Source of the DNA: Luteibacter sp. Sphag1AF
GTDB lineage: Bacteria > Pseudomonadota > Gammaproteobacteria > Xanthomonadales > Rhodanobacteraceae
Length of the DNA stretch: 64,000 nt
Reading direction: 5' to 3'
Assembly (NCBI RefSeq): GCF_014192715.1
Contig: NZ_JACHYH010000001.1
Location: forward strand, 1,364,001 to 1,428,000
The notes beneath the pieces were generated by a model. The model was not told the DNA's origin, did no database searches, and saw nothing but the letters and a program-made list of their open reading frames with translations. Below are positions 48,760 to 54,938 of this stretch, piece after piece (positions within the stretch are counted from its first letter, which is position 1; every line of letters begins with the position of its first letter). A program made the translations under genes and the position numbers.

Positions 48760-50487
48760 CTACCGGCAAAGCGACATGGACGGGCCACGTAGCTCCTGGC
48801 TCAGTTCGTGTTGCCGCTCCAGGTCCCTCTGCATCTGTCGCTCAACGAGCGCATGGAAATGGTTGTCGCTTTCCAGCGCGGGTGGTGGTGGCGTACTGAG
48901 GTCGATGACGGCGTGGGTGCCGGGGGTGAGGCCGGTGAGCATCAGTCTTTCGCCTTCGATATCCATCGTGCGGATATGTCCTGCTTCGATGCCGCCTTTC
49001 TTTACCGCCCACGCAATTTGCGCCAGCCGGTCGGGCGAGGTCTCGGCGGGCAAGGCGTCGCGGAGTTCGCGGTGCAGCGCGGAGTTCATCAACGGGGCGG
49101 GTCGCGCGTTGATGGGTGACTCGGGAACATGCGAAAACTGGTGCGGGCCATCCAGCGTGTGATCGAAGTGGCTCCGTGACGCGGGCGACCGGCTGGTATC
49201 GGCATACGGAAGCGATCGCTTGGAGGGCAGGCCGAGGCCCAGTGGCTCGATGACATCTTCATGCAGGCCCAGGTGCTCCATGTTGATCTGCACCTCCGGT
49301 TTCTTGCCGTGAACGGTCGGGCTCTTCTGTTCCGCCTCTGCGATGATCTTCACGGCCCAGTTCCCGTAAAAGTCCGGATAGTCGCCTATGCCTTTGGCGC
49401 CCAGCGTCATCACCTGCCGCGTGTCGTCGGGTTGTTTGTGCAACGGGCTGGGGCGGTTGAAATAGTTTTCGCCCATGCCCGCGATGTTGGTGGGGGTGAA
49501 GGGCATCGACAGGTCGGGGTTGAGGTGGATGTTTGATCGGGGTAAGGACTTGTCCTGACCTACTCGCATCAAGAAATCTTCTGCCCGGTCGTGTGCTGCA
49601 TTGAGTATGTCGTCGAGCGTCATATTCGGATGGGATTGCTGGACACGACTATGAAGCGCATTCCATCCAGCAATTTCTGCTTTCGCCTCGTCGTCTCTGC
49701 TCGACTGAATGAAGCGCCCGACGGGCTGCGTATAGTCGTGTGCCTCTTCCCGGGTGGACGCGACCTTGTGAACGTCGTTATCAAACGTTCTGACCGCCCT
49801 GGCGGTGGCGGCGCTGTTGAAGCCATGCTGCGCCTCGTGACCGATCACAAATGTCAGGTCATGGGGCCGGTAACTTCCCTGCGGGTGATGGGGTCCTTTG
49901 ACGACAAGCGAGGCGCTCGGAAGGTTCAGGGCACGGTGCTCACTGTCATAGCTTCCGCCGACGCCAGCGCCGGCGCGGGGCCCCAGAATCTGGAACGACT
50001 CCAGGATCATGGGAGCGGTGTTGTCTTGTGCGTAGGTGGTGGCGGCCCTTTTGACCTCGGCGGCCAGATGAGGGGAGCTGTTCAACGTGTCTTGCAGGTT
50101 ATGGATCATTTCCGCACAGGGCAGCCGCTTTGTTTCTGTCTCGTCTTCGTACTGCCTCGAGGAGAGAGCGACCACCATCGACTGGATGCGCAACACGGCC
50201 CGAAGGTCGGCGGATGGCCGCGTGGTGGGAGGGGTGAACGAGCTTGCCGGCAGGGTGACTGTACCGCTCGTGGGGTTGAAGTGCCCGGTGGGAATGGCTT
50301 GTCCGTCAGCGGACTGCACGGCAAAGTGCTTTACCGCACCGGAGGCAGCGGCGGCATTCAATAATCCAAGAAGGATCTTGTCTGCTTTTAGCGTCGACCT
50401 GAATTGTTCCATCTGTCCGGGCGACACATTCGGTTGGTTCTCAAGCTGCGTGAGCGCGCTATCGAGTGCCTGATTTGTCCTTGGCAT
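48760..50487 (-). CDS. Putative type IV secretion effector with HEAQH zinc-protease motif and XVIPCD
   Basis: A 575-residue protein without a signal peptide. Residues 1-150 are helical; a central domain has the metalloprotease motif HEAQH (residues 217-221) with a downstream RDDEAKAEIAGWN segment that could give the third ligand. Residues about 435-575 resemble the XVIPCD: SHFDHTLDGPHQF, DRLAQIAWAVKKGGIEAGHIRT, LTPGTHAVIDLSTPPPPAL and a Gln-rich tail (ERQMQRDLERQHEL). XVIPCD proteins are secreted through the VirD4-dependent antibacterial T4SS of Xanthomonadales. Ribosome binding site AAAGGAAA, 15 nt after the upstream immunity-copy stop. I infer a toxin cutting a periplasmic target in rival cells; the target is unknown. 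Confidence 0.72.
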   Translation of the reverse strand: MPRTNQALDSALTQLENQPNVSPGQMEQFRSTLKADKILLGLLNAAAASGAVKHFAVQSADGQAIPTGHFNPTSGTVTLPASSFTPPTTRPSADLRAVLRIQSMVVALSSRQYEDETETKRLPCAEMIHNLQDTLNSSPHLAAEVKRAATTYAQDNTAPMILESFQILGPRAGAGVGGSYDSEHRALNLPSASLVVKGPHHPQGSYRPHDLTFVIGHEAQHGFNSAATARAVRTFDNDVHKVASTREEAHDYTQPVGRFIQSSRDDEAKAEIAGWNALHSRVQQSHPNMTLDDILNAAHDRAEDFLMRVGQDKSLPRSNIHLNPDLSMPFTPTNIAGMGENYFNRPSPLHKQPDDTRQVMTLGAKGIGDYPDFYGNWAVKIIAEAEQKSPTVHGKKPEVQINMEHLGLHEDVIEPLGLGLPSKRSLPYADTSRSPASRSHFDHTLDGPHQFSHVPESPINARPAPLMNSALHRELRDALPAETSPDRLAQIAWAVKKGGIEAGHIRTMDIEGERLMLTGLTPGTHAVIDLSTPPPPALESDNHFHALVERQMQRDLERQHELSQELRGPSMSLCR

Positions 50488-50502
50488 AGTGATTTCCTTT
50501 GG

Positions 50503-51113
50503 TTACTTTAAGTCGAAGGTTTGCACTAGAAGAATGCATTCCCGGTCTTTGGCCGCAATCGAAAAGTCAGTGGACATGACGAAGACAATTAAGTCTCACT
50601 TCTCGAAGTTCCATGAGTTGATGCGTTCATGATGTTCGGGCTGTATCCATTCTTTGAATCCACGGGGAATGAGTGCAGAGCGGATTCGATCCAGATCCAT
50701 GCACAGACAGGCGTTGGGTCAGCAGTGAGATCTTTGTTGTAGAAGCGCAAAGCGAAACCGGGCTTTGTATCTGGCTGGGGTGCCCGGTACGCGACGGAGT
50801 AAATCCAGCCTGCCCCGATCTGCCGTTTGGCATAGTGCGTGCCGGGTCGAATTTCACTCAAAGATAAGTGGAACGCCCGCTCCATCGCTGCCTGCGTGAT
50901 ATCCGCTGTACTACTCAACCCAGCAACAAAGTCGAGAAAGCGCGTCGCTGCTTGCTCGGCCACGTCACTGGCAGGGGGATATGGTGGTGTATTCGACGTG
51001 GCCCGACTGTCCAGTACGGGCGATGAAGAGATGGGTGTAGATGCTTGCGAAAGCCCTGCCACTGCCATCGCTGCCATAGCGACGGCGGTGATTGTTTTGT
51101 TACCCATTGGCAT
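50503..51113 (-). pseudogene. Decayed immunity-protein gene, copy 2
   Basis: A paralogue of the Tfi domain at 51193-51804. The 174-residue reading frame (50589-51113) matches copy 1 from MPMGNKTITAVAMAAMAVAG through SDVAEQAATRFLDF and SEIRPGTHY to PTPVCA. A 1-nt deletion relative to copy 1 (TGCGTTATGG against TGTGCATGG) then shifts the frame and ends it early. In the original frame the sequence still resembles copy 1 for a further 60 codons, but GAG is replaced by TGA. The ancestral stop lies at 50503-50505. The signal peptide and ribosome binding site GAGAGG are kept. A truncated protein with a novel tail could still be made. Confidence 0.75.
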
Positions 51114-51177
51114 GTACCTCTCGCTGTCTGGCGAGTTGCATGGCGGCGCTTTCGAGCGCCTGATGTGTCCTTGGCAT
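51100..51177 (-). pseudogene. Remnant of an effector-gene start (25 codons)
   Basis: A short frame, MPRTHQALESAAMQLARQ..., matches the effector start MPRTNQALDSALTQL at 50487: the first 33 nt differ at only four positions. Its ATG lies 15 nt after the stop of immunity copy 1, with AAAGGGA before it, exactly as the intact effector lies 15 nt after the ancestral stop of copy 2. It ends at a TAA inside the start of copy 2. It is best explained as what remains of a first effector gene after deletion. Confidence 0.72.
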
Positions 51178-51192
51178 AGTTAATCCCTTTGC

Positions 51193-51804
51193 TTATTTTA
51201 AGTCGCGGGTTTGCACCAACAGCACACACTCCCTGCCATGGCTATCGGTTGAAAAATCTCTGGAAAGAATCATGACAACCAAGTCCTCTTTCTCGAAATT
51301 CCATGAGCTGATGCCTCCGTGATGCCGAGGATTTGTCCATTCTTTGAATCCACGGGGAATGAGAGCAGAGCGGATTCGCTCCAGATCCATAACGCAGATG
51401 AGCGTTGGATCGGATGTTCGGTCTGGGTGATAGAAATCGAACGCGAAGCCAGCTTTTGTATCAGGCCGGGGAGCTCGGTAAGCGACGGAGTAAATCCAGC
51501 CGGCCCCGATCTTCTGTTCGACAAAGTACGTGCCGGGTCGAATTTCACTCAAAGATAAGTGGAACGCACGCTCCATCGCTGCCTGCGTGATATCCGCCGT
51601 ACGACTCAACCCCGCAACAAAGTCGAGAAAGCGCGTCGCTGCTTGCTCGGCCACGTCACTGGCTGAGGGCGGGGGTGGTGTTTCCGTCGTGGCCTCAATA
51701 GCCGGGACGGGCGGTGCCGGGGGGGGCGTTGATGCTTTTGACAACCCTGCCACGGCCAGTCCTGCGACGGCAGCGACGGCGATGGTCTTTTTACCGATGG
51801 GCAT
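51193..51804 (-). CDS. Putative T4SS immunity protein (Tfi-like), copy 1, internal start
   Basis: The same frame as VirD4 has an ATG at 51804 preceded by GGAGAGG, 4 nt upstream, so a 203-residue protein could be made alone. It starts with MPIGKKTIAVAAVAGLAVAG, a signal peptide without a lipobox Cys, a Pro/Thr-rich linker, then ASDVAEQAATRFLDFVAGLSRTADI, SEIRPGTYF and a terminal beta-rich part ending in ECVLLVQTRDLK. The intact partner of the decayed copy 2, it should act in the periplasm to protect the producer from the effector. The GAGAGG site is conserved in copy 2, supporting independent translation. Confidence 0.65.
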   Translation of the reverse strand: MPIGKKTIAVAAVAGLAVAGLSKASTPPPAPPVPAIEATTETPPPPSASDVAEQAATRFLDFVAGLSRTADITQAAMERAFHLSLSEIRPGTYFVEQKIGAGWIYSVAYRAPRPDTKAGFAFDFYHPDRTSDPTLICVMDLERIRSALIPRGFKEWTNPRHHGGISSWNFEKEDLVVMILSRDFSTDSHGRECVLLVQTRDLK

Positions 51805-53490
51805 AGGCCTCTCCATGGTGAGTGCCGCCACTTCCACGGGGGGAAGCAGGCGTGCGGTGAATCGCTTGTCCTGGTAGTAGCGAATCTTCTGGCAGCGCAC
51901 GGGGTGGGCGATGCCTTCGTAAAGAATCACTTCCTTGTCGGTGCCCAGGGCTTTCAGTTCCTGGGGCAGCATCAACGCACGACGCTCTTCGGTGCGTGTG
52001 CGTGATGGTCCTGCTTCGCCGCGTGAGATCGTGTCTCTCGATACGGTGGTGTATCCGAGCATCTGGGAATAGTCGTTCGCGTCGTTCTGTTCGCGGGGCG
52101 CGTAGATGATCTGTAGCGCGTGGTTGGTGATGATGGTGCGGGATATGTCCTTGCCGTAGGTCGCATCCAGCTGGGCCATGCTCTGGATGATGGGCAGAAG
52201 GCGCAGGTTGTAGCCGGCCATGTAGGACACGGCTCTGGCCAGGATGTCGATCTTCCCGATGGAGGTGAACTCGTCCATCAGCAGCAGGCACTGATGTTTC
52301 AGCGTTGCGTCGTTTTGCGGAAGCTCGCGCGTGTTCTCGTTGATGAGCTGGCTGAAGAACAGGTTGACGATCAACTGGCTTTCGGCGAGCTTGTTGGGCT
52401 GGATGCCGATATAGATCGTCATCTTCTTTCTGCGCACGTCGGTGAGCCGGAAGTGGTTTCCGCTGGTGGCGGCATCCAGTGCCGGGTTGATCCAGGCATT
52501 CAACGGCGCCTTGAAACTTCCCATGATGGAGGAAAAGGTGTCTCGGGCCTGCGACAGCAGGTTGTTGAAGGCGCCTTTGGCCTCCTTACTCAAAAAATCG
52601 CTGTTGCGCAGGGTTTCGATATGCTTGCGCAGGTCGCTGCCATTTCCCGAGGAGAGTCGATAGATCTCGCCCAGTGTCGGAAACCGGTGCGTGGAGGTGG
52701 GCAGTGCCAGGGTGATTTCCCTGTCGTAGCTTTCATACAGATAGAGCGCGAACGCCATGAACGCATGGCGTGCCTGGTTGACCCAGAATTTCTGTGCCTC
52801 GCCTGCGTCCGGATACAGCATCGCGGCCATGGCCTGGATATCGGCGATGCGAAGCGATGGGTCGGGCGACGCGTAGCTGAGTGGATTCCAGCGATGGGTG
52901 CGCCCGTCTTCGGCGAACGGGTTGAACAGATACACCTCCTGGCCCTGCGCTTTGCGCCAGCCGCTGGTCAGCTGGAAGTTCTCCTGCTTGATATCCAGCA
53001 CCACGACGGATTCCTGATAGTCCAGCAGGTTCGGAATCACCACGCCCACGCCTTTTCCCGAACGGGTGGGTGCGGCGAGGATGGCGAACTGCTGTCCGCT
53101 CAGTCGAATCAGCTTGCGGCCGAACTTGCCCACGATGATGCCGTTGGGCGACTCGGCCAGCAGACGGCTTTTCTTCAGATCCCGGAGACCGGCGAAGCGT
53201 GCGTCACCGTGAAGTGAGCGGGGCTTCGCCTTCAGTAGCGGCATCAGGCAACACACCCATGCAAAGAGTGGCAAGCCGAAACCCACGATGCCCGTGATGT
53301 AGACCTTCAGGCGGAAGTGTTTGTATTCGGGAAGTTGCGCGTCCCGGTAGCTATCCCACCAGACGCGGAAGGTCAGCGGTATGTCTGCGTTGATGACAAC
53401 GAGCAGAAGATAGCCTGACGCATAGGCGCCGGCGACGATGGCCGCCAGAAGCAGCGCTATCGCGCAGACAGCTTTCCATGGGTAGTTCAC
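51193..53490 (-). CDS. virD4: VirD4 coupling protein fused in frame to an immunity-like domain
   Basis: A 765-residue open frame. Residues 1-562 are a VirD4/TraG-type ATPase: two N-terminal membrane helices, Walker A in AAPTRSGKGVGVVIP (Lys146), LDIKQENFQLTSGWR, and Walker B in LLLMDEFTSIG (Asp406, Glu407). Normal VirD4 proteins end near residue 560. From Met563 the same frame continues without a stop into a signal-peptide-like segment and a 200-residue Tfi-like domain. VirD4 recruits XVIPCD effectors and feeds them to the T4SS channel. No other virB genes lie in the window. A sequencing indel at the junction could not join the frames without also affecting one of them. Confidence 0.85.
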   Translation of the reverse strand: MNYPWKAVCAIALLLAAIVAGAYASGYLLLVVINADIPLTFRVWWDSYRDAQLPEYKHFRLKVYITGIVGFGLPLFAWVCCLMPLLKAKPRSLHGDARFAGLRDLKKSRLLAESPNGIIVGKFGRKLIRLSGQQFAILAAPTRSGKGVGVVIPNLLDYQESVVVLDIKQENFQLTSGWRKAQGQEVYLFNPFAEDGRTHRWNPLSYASPDPSLRIADIQAMAAMLYPDAGEAQKFWVNQARHAFMAFALYLYESYDREITLALPTSTHRFPTLGEIYRLSSGNGSDLRKHIETLRNSDFLSKEAKGAFNNLLSQARDTFSSIMGSFKAPLNAWINPALDAATSGNHFRLTDVRRKKMTIYIGIQPNKLAESQLIVNLFFSQLINENTRELPQNDATLKHQCLLLMDEFTSIGKIDILARAVSYMAGYNLRLLPIIQSMAQLDATYGKDISRTIITNHALQIIYAPREQNDANDYSQMLGYTTVSRDTISRGEAGPSRTRTEERRALMLPQELKALGTDKEVILYEGIAHPVRCQKIRYYQDKRFTARLLPPVEVAALTMERPMPIGKKTIAVAAVAGLAVAGLSKASTPPPAPPVPAIEATTETPPPPSASDVAEQAATRFLDFVAGLSRTADITQAAMERAFHLSLSEIRPGTYFVEQKIGAGWIYSVAYRAPRPDTKAGFAFDFYHPDRTSDPTLICVMDLERIRSALIPRGFKEWTNPRHHGGISSWNFEKEDLVVMILSRDFSTDSHGRECVLLVQTRDLK

Positions 53491-53836
53491 TTGCGCGGCG
53501 CTCCGTGCCTGTTGGGTGTGCGGAGTCTAGCCACAGTGCATCGTGTTGAACGACCGCGCGTGTCATACGCAATCGTCTGGAACGGCTAAGCGCAAGGGTT
53601 TGGCGGCGTTTTCTTGTGTAGGCGTTTTCTGTGGATCGTGTTGTCGTGCATGCGGTGTGGTTACGAATTGACTCATCGCATGCCAGCGATGCGTGTTGCA
53701 TCGCCGATTCAGCGCTCTCAAATAATTCCGACGATTTTTTCGGAATAATCGGATGGCTACGCCTGCGGCGAGTCGGGATGCTTCCCGCGTCGCCGAATCC
53801 TCGGCGGCCGGGTGTGGAAGCCCGTATCCATTGTTC
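53491..53836. other. Intergenic gap before the structured leader
   Basis: This gap upstream of VirD4 carries no convincing gene. It holds a 7-bp hairpin, ATTCCGA (53725-53731) with TCGGAAT (53740-53746) around a T-rich loop, and an AT-rich patch (53717-53750) that may contain the promoter for the element downstream. Short open frames on both strands do not look protein-like. Confidence 0.4.
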
Positions 53837-53978
53837 ACACAGGCGGTTCGCCGCCTGTGTTCTATGCGCACGTGCTTACGGCGGGCGTGTCGGGCAGGCT
53901 CGCGCCTGACCGGGTACAGAACGAATGGACCGGTCTTCCACCCCGACACGTCCGCCACCTGCACACGCAGGGGCGGAC
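53837..53978 (+). ncRNA. Highly structured RNA leader, four hairpins
   Basis: Four successive hairpins: H1 ACACAGGCGG-TTCG-CCGCCTGTGT (53837-53860, perfect 10-bp stem with UUCG tetraloop); H2 CAGGC-TCGC-GCCTG (53895-53908); H3 GACCGG with CCGGTC (53908-53935); H4 GTCCGCC-A-CCTGC-ACAC-GCAGG-GGCGGAC (53950-53978, 12 bp, one bulged A). H4 ends 24 nt before the ATG of the zinc-ribbon gene, and the Shine-Dalgarno lies between. Such density is well above the local background. It may be a 5' leader that controls the downstream gene, or a small RNA. No known class is recognised. Confidence 0.5.
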
Positions 53979-54001
53979 TCATCGAGGCAAAAGGAACCGT
54001 C

Positions 54002-54334
54002 ATGAACCCGACCCGCCAAACCCTTTCATGTCCGTCGTGCCACAGCGACGTTGAACTCAGCAACGACCAGTTGCACAGCGCTGTTGTCGGGCGGCTCAAC
54101 GATGCGACAGATGTGCTCGACGTGCTCTCTCACACGTTCGAGGCCGACATGAATCCTGCGGTATGGCGGCGTACTGCCCGCATGGCGAAGCGGCTCATCG
54201 AAGAGTCGAAGCCTGCGATTGACGCGATCCGCTACAGCCGGGTCGAGTTCATTCCCTCGGATGTGATTATGGGGTTGTGCGGCGAAGCGCGAGGCGACGA
54301 TCACTGCACCCCGACATCAGGGAAACGCGCGTAA
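54002..54334 (+). CDS. Small zinc-ribbon hypothetical protein
   Basis: A 110-residue protein opening with TLSCPSCHSDVELS, a CxxC that would need a second pair for a full zinc finger; one more Cys pair is not obvious, so the metal site may be dimeric or different. The rest is helical (VVGRLNDATDVLDVLSHTFEADM, WRRTARMAKRLIEESKPAIDAIRYSRVEFIP). Shine-Dalgarno AAAAGGAA lies about 6 nt before the ATG. It follows the structured leader and is likely to be regulated by it. Function unknown; possibly a small nucleic-acid-binding protein. Confidence 0.6.
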   Translation: MNPTRQTLSCPSCHSDVELSNDQLHSAVVGRLNDATDVLDVLSHTFEADMNPAVWRRTARMAKRLIEESKPAIDAIRYSRVEFIPSDVIMGLCGEARGDDHCTPTSGKRA

Positions 54335-54351
54335 CCCCAACAGCAAGCCAC

Positions 54352-54391
54352 AAAAAAAACCTCCTGCCGGAACAGACGTGCCGGCAGGAGG
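54352..54391 (-). terminator. Rho-independent terminator of pagL
   Basis: On the minus strand an 11-bp perfect stem, CCTCCTGCCGG with CCGGCAGGAGG (54360-54370 and 54381-54391), has a 10-nt loop and is followed by eight U residues (A-run 54352-54359 on plus). It is 20 nt past the pagL stop. The convergent zinc-ribbon gene ends 18 nt away, so it may also affect that transcript. Confidence 0.8.
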
Positions 54392-54410
54392 CTTATTTAG
54401 TGCAAACCGG

Positions 54411-54938
54411 TCAGAGATCGAAACCCAGACCCACCAGCGCCATTGTCTCGCCACGGTTCGGCTTCTTGAAGCTGCCGTTGGAAATGTGGCGAACCTGCAG
54501 GCTTACGTTCTTGTACTGCCAGCCCAGTGTGCTGACGAATTCGTAAGCGCTGCTGAGTGCCTGCGTGCGTCCGGTCTGGCCAGCGACCTGGAAGCTGAAG
54601 AACAGCGGCTGATACCAGTCGCCTGCGCTGCCGTAATGGAAGCGCGCACCGGCGGCACCGATCAGCACGTGATCGGTCACGCCCGGATTGGAACTGGCGT
54701 AGCGTTCAATCTGGCGGCCCTTGATGTAGCCCAGCGACACGTCAGGGGACCAGGTAAACCGGCTGTTGCCCATGGGATTGGGTGCGAAAACCGACTCGAT
54801 GAAGAAGGCAGCCGTGCCGTGATCGTCCATGTAACTGCGACCACCCTGGACCTCGATATGGGTTTGAGCAATTGCCGGGATGGTGGCGGCGAAGGACAGC
54901 GCGGCCACAAGGCCGAGGGCAAGTTTGGACGGGCGCAT
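54411..54938 (-). CDS. pagL: PagL-type lipid A 3-O-deacylase
   Basis: A 175-residue outer-membrane enzyme with a signal peptide (cut near IAQT) and eight beta-strands. The C-terminal catalytic region is RHISNGSFKKPNRGET with His151 and Ser153; a Glu follows at 164, one residue closer than in Pseudomonas PagL as I recall it. It ends GLGFDL. PagL removes the 3-position acyl chain of lipid A and so lowers TLR4 recognition. It is a monocistronic gene with a strong terminator. Confidence 0.87.
   Translation of the reverse strand: MRPSKLALGLVAALSFAATIPAIAQTHIEVQGGRSYMDDHGTAAFFIESVFAPNPMGNSRFTWSPDVSLGYIKGRQIERYASSNPGVTDHVLIGAAGARFHYGSAGDWYQPLFFSFQVAGQTGRTQALSSAYEFVSTLGWQYKNVSLQVRHISNGSFKKPNRGETMALVGLGFDL

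Follow-up and report, generated by a model that had tools for sequence, protein, structure and literature searches.

C4 is a classic immunity RNA of phages. In the immI operon of phages P1 and P7, the downstream genes are icd and ant. The C4 and c4-a1b1 motifs both figure in the pages of Weinberg 2010 (PMC2864571) that bear on them. For phage P4, a passage of PMC4825925 states that pairing of the CI RNA with seqA leads to premature termination, and it describes CI and seqA as analogues of a locus of the kind described below. C4-like RNAs have also been found on bacterial chromosomes: sections of PMC5320573 deal with the Group 1 sRNAs of Acinetobacter baumannii (21 sequences), and a table in PMC12189769 includes C4 matches from Xylella. 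Multi-copy chromosomal C4s have been read as sRNAs seeking targets. In the open literature, the titles, openings of abstracts and passages covered gave no account of self-leader targeting by chromosomal C4s or of the units described below.

The window, by which we mean the whole 64,000-nucleotide stretch of Luteibacter DNA that was analysed, contains a cluster of hairpins in front of a small gene. The initial annotation had found that no named class fitted them, and this did not hold: they belong to a C4 antisense RNA of the phage type, which lies beside its own a1b1 target, a known RNA family in a new setting. Rfam C4 (RF01695) matched at 53874-53962 with 51.9 bits against a cut-off of 45, covering model positions 1-87 of 87, and was the sole Rfam match above cut-off in the full-window scan (E 4.3e-7; E 6.8e-9 in a 1-kb scan). 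A relaxed Rfam scan covered 53500-54500. Full-length matches below cut-off were c4-a1b1 (RF03163) at 53776-53828, with 34.3 bits against 46.7 (E 1.1e-6), and isrK (RF01394) at 53789-53861, with 31.6 bits against 50.

The unit lies on the forward strand. Its upstream block (CTCTCAAATAATTCCG..TTTTTCGGAATAATCGGATGG, 53715..53757), which contains the inverted repeat ATTCCGA/TCGGAAT and is near-invariant in the 12 units of this genome, is presumably the promoter or operator region. A putative -10 element, GATGCT (53777..53782), is invariant in 12/12 units, and transcription probably starts near 53789. The a1b1 target leader (53776..53836), recognised by the sub-threshold RF03163 match and by its complementarity to C4, comprises a hairpin at 53789-53808, a second one at 53809-53824 with b1 in its loop (GTGGAAG, 53814-53820), and then a1 (53827-53836). 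It is followed by a terminator-like hairpin (53837..53861) with a 10-bp stem and a UUCG loop, which forms the 3' end of the isrK-like stretch 53789-53861. The C4 antisense RNA itself (53874..53962) consists of P1 (53880-53894/53942-53956), P2 (53895-53908) and P3 (53908-53935), with the a' loop at 53914-53929 and b' at 53935-53941; an RNase P-type 5' end is presumed near G53880, where P1 has a GG at its expected start. A 12-bp stem with a bulged A (53950..53978) comes next, and an ORF after a GGA Shine-Dalgarno encodes a CPxC small protein of 110 aa (54002..54334). The order of target, terminator-like hairpin and antisense RNA is the one known from phage immunity regions.

The structured, cis-located regulatory RNA that the initial annotation had placed before this gene is indeed there. 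The RNA 53780-54010 has a minimum free energy of -120.3 kcal/mol, compared with -93.1 (s.d. 5.1) in 200 dinucleotide shuffles (z -5.4), and 0/200 shuffles were equally stable. All the hairpins it had stated are present: the 10-bp UUCG stem is read from the sequence as perfect at 53837-53860, the 12-bp stem spans 53950-53978 as 7+5 bp around the bulge A53957, and P2 (CAGGC/GCCTG, 53895-53908) and P3 (GACCGG/CCGGTC, 53908-53935) sit between the two. The main helix, however, the 15-bp P1 at 53880-53894/53942-53956, had been overlooked. The unit had also been cut short, in that the upstream block and target at about 53715-53836 fell outside it, as did two further hairpins of the unit at 53789-53824. 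Covariation, proposed as a check, was observed: of the 15 P1 pairs, 13 are changed on both sides in one or more of 38 aligned sequences. From this alignment RNAalifold failed to predict P2 and P3; the processed C4 took a three-stem fold in three examples (the window unit, L002 and L036). P1 and the bulged-A stem are mutually exclusive because the 3' strand of P1 is also the 5' half of the bulged-A stem, and when the whole leader is folded, the structure of lowest energy contains the bulged-A stem.

In its C4 fold, its order of a1b1, C4 and gene, and its a'/b' antisense pairing, the unit resembles the C4 of P1 and P7. It differs in lacking a clear a2b2 where the gene begins and in occurring in 12 copies in one genome; the neighbours of the units are chromosomal, and none was recognised as a phage gene. 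Its gene also encodes a CPxC protein rather than icd or ant, a distinction drawn from Pfam, PHROG and NCBIfam profiles. With the CI/seqA/seqC system, as described in passages on P4, it shares a leader target upstream of the antisense RNA and a terminator-like hairpin between them, termination being predicted here; this likeness is one of description, and P4 has a downstream second target, seqC, whereas no such excess is seen here. In passages on the IsrK locus of Gifsy-1, too, a short RNA ends at a terminator and a complementary processed RNA lies downstream (the isrK match here being sub-threshold), but there the short RNA is reported to activate translation of an antirepressor operon, and the gene that follows here encodes a CPxC protein. 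The Group 1 RNAs of A. baumannii, as published, are similar in being many chromosomal C4s with variable a' loops (21 sequences); unlike here, an upstream Region 1 is considered perhaps auxiliary, and self-leader targeting is undescribed in those sections of PMC5320573.

We found 12 C4 matches, all above cut-off, in the genome that contains the window (4.18 Mb, 18 contigs), and each of these 12 units is followed by a family gene. Ten of the 12 ORFs are complete, one has an internal TGA and one runs into a contig end. In L005 (G000:C3:79754), the RNA is intact and the CPxC gene carries a premature TGA. When aligned, the 12 units have in common a sharp left edge, the upstream block, the GATGCT box, the a1b1 leader, the hairpin, C4, a stem resembling the bulged one and the CPxC gene; a1 and a' are the most variable RNA stretches. 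A 21-base pattern taken from this upstream block has 12 exact copies in the genome, every one at a unit, and a copy with two mismatches at one further site. This site is the relic L197 (G000:C1:731431), where the upstream block and a1b1 leader are kept and neither a C4 match nor a family gene is found. Among 84,980 species of a public set, which possibly omits this genome, the exact pattern was present in 8 stretches, 7 of them from Luteibacter rhizovicinus; the pattern at L205, a Patescibacteria contig, lies inside a coding gene and was taken as a chance match.

Within the genus, 5/23 genomes had any C4 match: 12 here, 17 in L. rhizovicinus (G011) and one apiece in three others. Sixteen of the 17 in L. 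rhizovicinus were above cut-off, and three weaker, sub-threshold C4s were found in addition. CPxC family sites, for which 197 genomes of the bacterial family were searched, numbered 12 in this genome, 20 in L. rhizovicinus and 1, weak, in a third. The 20 genes of L. rhizovicinus follow a listed C4 in 15 cases and a sub-threshold C4 in 3, and 2 (L216, L219) have no C4 upstream. Loss of the stems with retention of the gene, which the initial annotation had named as evidence against its proposal, therefore occurs, but rarely (these 2/20). Conversely, 2/17 C4s in L. rhizovicinus (L043, L045) have no family gene. Another genome of the same bacterial family (G069, 6.5 Mb) has 19 C4 matches spread over its chromosome (L074-L091). 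A weak CPxC relative at L221 (G014:C1:448128-449556) has no C4 match; this locus has a sub-threshold match to the SymR antitoxin RNA (44.7 bits against a cut-off of 61).

Pairing energies between each leader and the a'/b' part of C4 were calculated with RNAduplex for all pairs within each of seven genomes, with 12/12 units used for this genome (G000), 17/17 for G011, 18/19 for G069, 9/10 for G479, 6/6 for G461, 4/5 for G575 and 4/4 for G418. Mean self pairing was better than mean cross pairing in 7/7 sets. In this genome, self pairing reached -43.5 kcal/mol compared with -33.3 for cross pairing, and a leader's best partner was its own C4 in 9/12 units, among them the window unit, whose self pairing ranked 1 of 12; in the other 3/12, another unit's C4 equalled or outscored it. 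The corresponding values were -37.6 and -29.6 kcal/mol in L. rhizovicinus (own C4 best in 13/17) and -39.3 and -27.8 in G069 (18/18), and permutation of the partners gave 0/20,000 arrangements as good in each of these three genomes. The own C4 was also the best partner in 7/9 units of G479, 6/6 of G461, 4/4 of G575 and 4/4 of G418. For the shuffle and nested-block tests, 10 hand-picked single copies from other genomes were added. Complementarity to the leader reached z < -3 against dinucleotide shuffles in 10/12 units here, 8/17 in G011, 11/18 in G069 and 5/9 in G479, and two nested exact complementary blocks of at least 6 nt were found in 70/80 self pairs but only 154/926 cross pairs. Furthermore, b1 and b' changed in a compensatory manner (GTAGAAA/TTTCTAC versus GTCGAAA/TTTCGAC) in three pairs of units of this genome that share their a1/a' core, namely L001/L002, L003/L005 and L004/L006. 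An a' loop that could take any host target would not be expected to match its own leader better than those of other copies, and the own match is better. Judged from complementarity, pairing of C4 with its own leader is strongly supported; the two are probably carried on one transcript.

Selection for unique keys was also considered and was not supported: in the sets compared, b' differs between units that have an a' core in common, yet the permutation P values were 0.39 and 0.54 in the two Luteibacter genomes, with 20 units from L. rhizovicinus (the 17 plus the three sub-threshold ones). In this test, 37 pairs had a common 8-nt a' word, and b' was the same in 2, L008/L034 and L081/L086, whose a' cores differ; with the corrected b' of L002, L002/L034 is a third same-b' pair, again with different a' cores. 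Counts of anti-Shine-Dalgarno sequences in a' gave a mixed outcome.

We propose that the window unit is a C4/a1b1 module of the phage P1/P4 immunity type that is present as a solitary chromosomal unit and probably acts as an autoregulatory antisense attenuator of its own CPxC gene. A single promoter would drive the b1-a1 leader, the terminator-like hairpin, C4 and the CPxC gene, and RNase P would free C4 from this transcript. The a' loop and b' strand of C4 would then pair with a1 and b1 of nascent transcripts from the same unit and, as P4 CI RNA does on seqA, may favour a stop at the hairpin between a1b1 and C4, so that the CPxC gene would stay low. In the alternative state, suggested by predicted folds, pairing of a1b1 with a'b' in cis would leave no C4, place its 3' strand in the bulged-A stem and make the mRNA possible. 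The predicted folds of the window unit, L002 and L036 show this cis pairing with the 3' strand of P1 in the downstream stem, and this fold and the C4 fold are mutually exclusive. In a rough comparison, the full leader had a lower predicted energy than its separately folded parts in 12/12 units of this genome. Cofolding of an intact leader with an intact C4 brought a net gain of only 0 to -8.5 kcal/mol, and pairing in trans would therefore need kissing loops or nascent RNA. No long U run follows the hairpin in the window, whereas in G069 and other genomes, among the matches listed, hairpins at the equivalent place are followed by T runs; intrinsic termination is thus expected to be weaker here than there. 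Since a' changes together with a1 and b' with b1, we predict that the dozen units of this genome work for the most part as switches independent of one another.

An unlikely alternative to attenuation is repression of translation as in P1, in which C4 would block ribosome binding through an a2b2 target at the Shine-Dalgarno of the gene. According to a passage of PMC5320573, the C4 of P1 and P7 occludes ribosome-binding sites through b'. We searched the 75 nt downstream for complementarity, scored as z against shuffles with a threshold of z < -3, and it was commoner in phage-like and single copies (4/6 in G461, 2/4 in G575, 1/4 in G418 and 2/10 single copies). In the multi-copy sets it was rare, at 1/12 in this genome, 0/17 in G011, 0/18 in G069 and 1/9 in G479, and the window unit, with z -1.2, showed no a2b2 target at its ribosome-binding site by this threshold. 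The missing excess in the multi-copy sets therefore points to control through the leader only, though the comparison sets are small. Still less probable is that these RNAs are trans-acting sRNAs whose targets are unrelated mRNAs of the host or of phages, the co-option proposed for Acinetobacter; the variable a' loops of the 21 A. baumannii Group 1 sequences are read in this way in sections of PMC5320573, but here a1 of the same transcript accounts for the variable a', and two exact a1b1 patterns (L001/L002; L038) had no match in viral contigs.

We give an equally low probability to the view that the units are functionless, decaying remnants of phage immunity regions. Decay would fit the leader-only relic L197, the premature stop in L005, the C4s without a gene (L043, L045) and genes without a C4 (L216, L219) in L. 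rhizovicinus, and the restriction of any C4 match to just 5/23 genomes of the genus. Against it, compensatory changes from copy to copy preserve the complementarity of a1 with a' and of b1 with b', all aligned sequences keep CPxC, and 10/12 ORFs of this genome are complete, a single one being broken and another ended by the contig edge. That the leader is really coding, as an N-terminal extension of the ORF, is barely credible. A 193-aa frame is indeed open from 53753 through the leader, but the C4 segment varies from 87 to 91 nt over the 12 copies; these differences are not multiples of three and the frame is not kept, and we rejected the extension for this reason. The RNA pairs covary, and a Shine-Dalgarno precedes the ATG at 54002.

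The product of the gene that the attenuator would control had been called a zinc-ribbon protein by the initial annotation, which was too generous: the single CPxC pair, C10 and C13, holds the only invariant cysteines in the family, where a zinc ribbon would have two Cys pairs and four ligands. Neither the window protein nor its relatives matched Pfam, PHROG or NCBIfam at E <= 0.001. A single-sequence AlphaFold model (pLDDT 75.8) comprised one beta knuckle and a helical hairpin, and a second model from 7 sequences was poorer (pLDDT 67.3). Foldseek with the CPxC model returned 0 matches at E <= 0.001 and thus no close fold in the PDB, and a profile search of the PDB gave a designed helical barrel as the best match (E 0.0033), with RING- and LysW-type knuckles at E 0.03 or more. 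A link to DUF3077 was not retained. Its sole match was weak (the L065 ORF, E 0.12), and PF11275 was found in 0/274 class genomes and in no control either, so that nothing follows from it for such a link. By analogy with Icd of P1 and with AntQ, our guess is that too much of the CPxC protein would do harm.

The surroundings of the units are chromosomal. Of 22 other genomes of the genus, 20 have an EmrB-like gene no more than 1.5 kb from a PagL-like gene, with gaps of 44 to 1129 bp. In the window, the two are separated by a 5.7-kb block made up of an XVIPCD-like ORF, a VirD4-type coupling gene and the C4 unit; the first of these has no Pfam match and, we assume, resembles XVIPCD effectors. L. 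rhizovicinus has a C4 unit of another subfamily between the same gene pair. The block of VirD4 gene and XVIPCD-like ORF occurs twice in the genome (window 48760-53490; L012:4993-9199), each time adjoining a C4 unit, and in the second copy VirD4 is 93.7% identical and the unit has a different key. The VirD4-type ORF of the window (51193-53490, 765 aa) has an extra C-terminal part; its relatives also adjoin as separate matches. A third, more distant VirD4 (53%) flanks unit L019, and a VirD4 in L. rhizovicinus flanks L023. Between valS and lptF, the gap in this genome measures 1159 bp and contains a unit, whereas that in L. rhizovicinus measures 237 bp and contains none; this comparison covers 2/22 loci, the other 20 being without lptF in the stretch examined. 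At these two sites, EmrB/PagL and valS-lptF, the units look as if gained or lost as discrete cassettes. Residence in a prophage was considered and set aside: among 19 nearby proteins, the Pfam matches were of chromosomal types such as ValS, LptF, adenylosuccinate lyase, RapA and KdpA, or were VirD4-type. Phage and plasmid records gave no match, and viral contigs gave none for two exact patterns and one protein.

Multi-copy C4s have already been published for Acinetobacter, and what is new here is their setting before CPxC genes. The comparison of self and cross pairing gives a simple answer for the target, namely the unit's own leader, and the loops whose variability had been puzzling become natural RNA keys that may be orthogonal. 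It is conceivable, though rather doubtful, that Luteibacter has a repertoire of at least a dozen orthogonal switches in small intergenic cassettes, each repressed by its own C4, with keys that behave like incompatibility or superinfection-immunity types; under the pairing rule found here, the same would hold for other C4-rich genomes. If so, an incoming element or a duplicated cassette with the same a/b key would be silenced. This raises the question of why one genome keeps a dozen C4 units before small proteins.

A compact arrangement was observed at L175 (G461:C9:1300-3692), in a 1.5-Mb genome, where four C4 units stand in tandem within 1.4 kb; they have four different b' strands, and three of them have the same a'.
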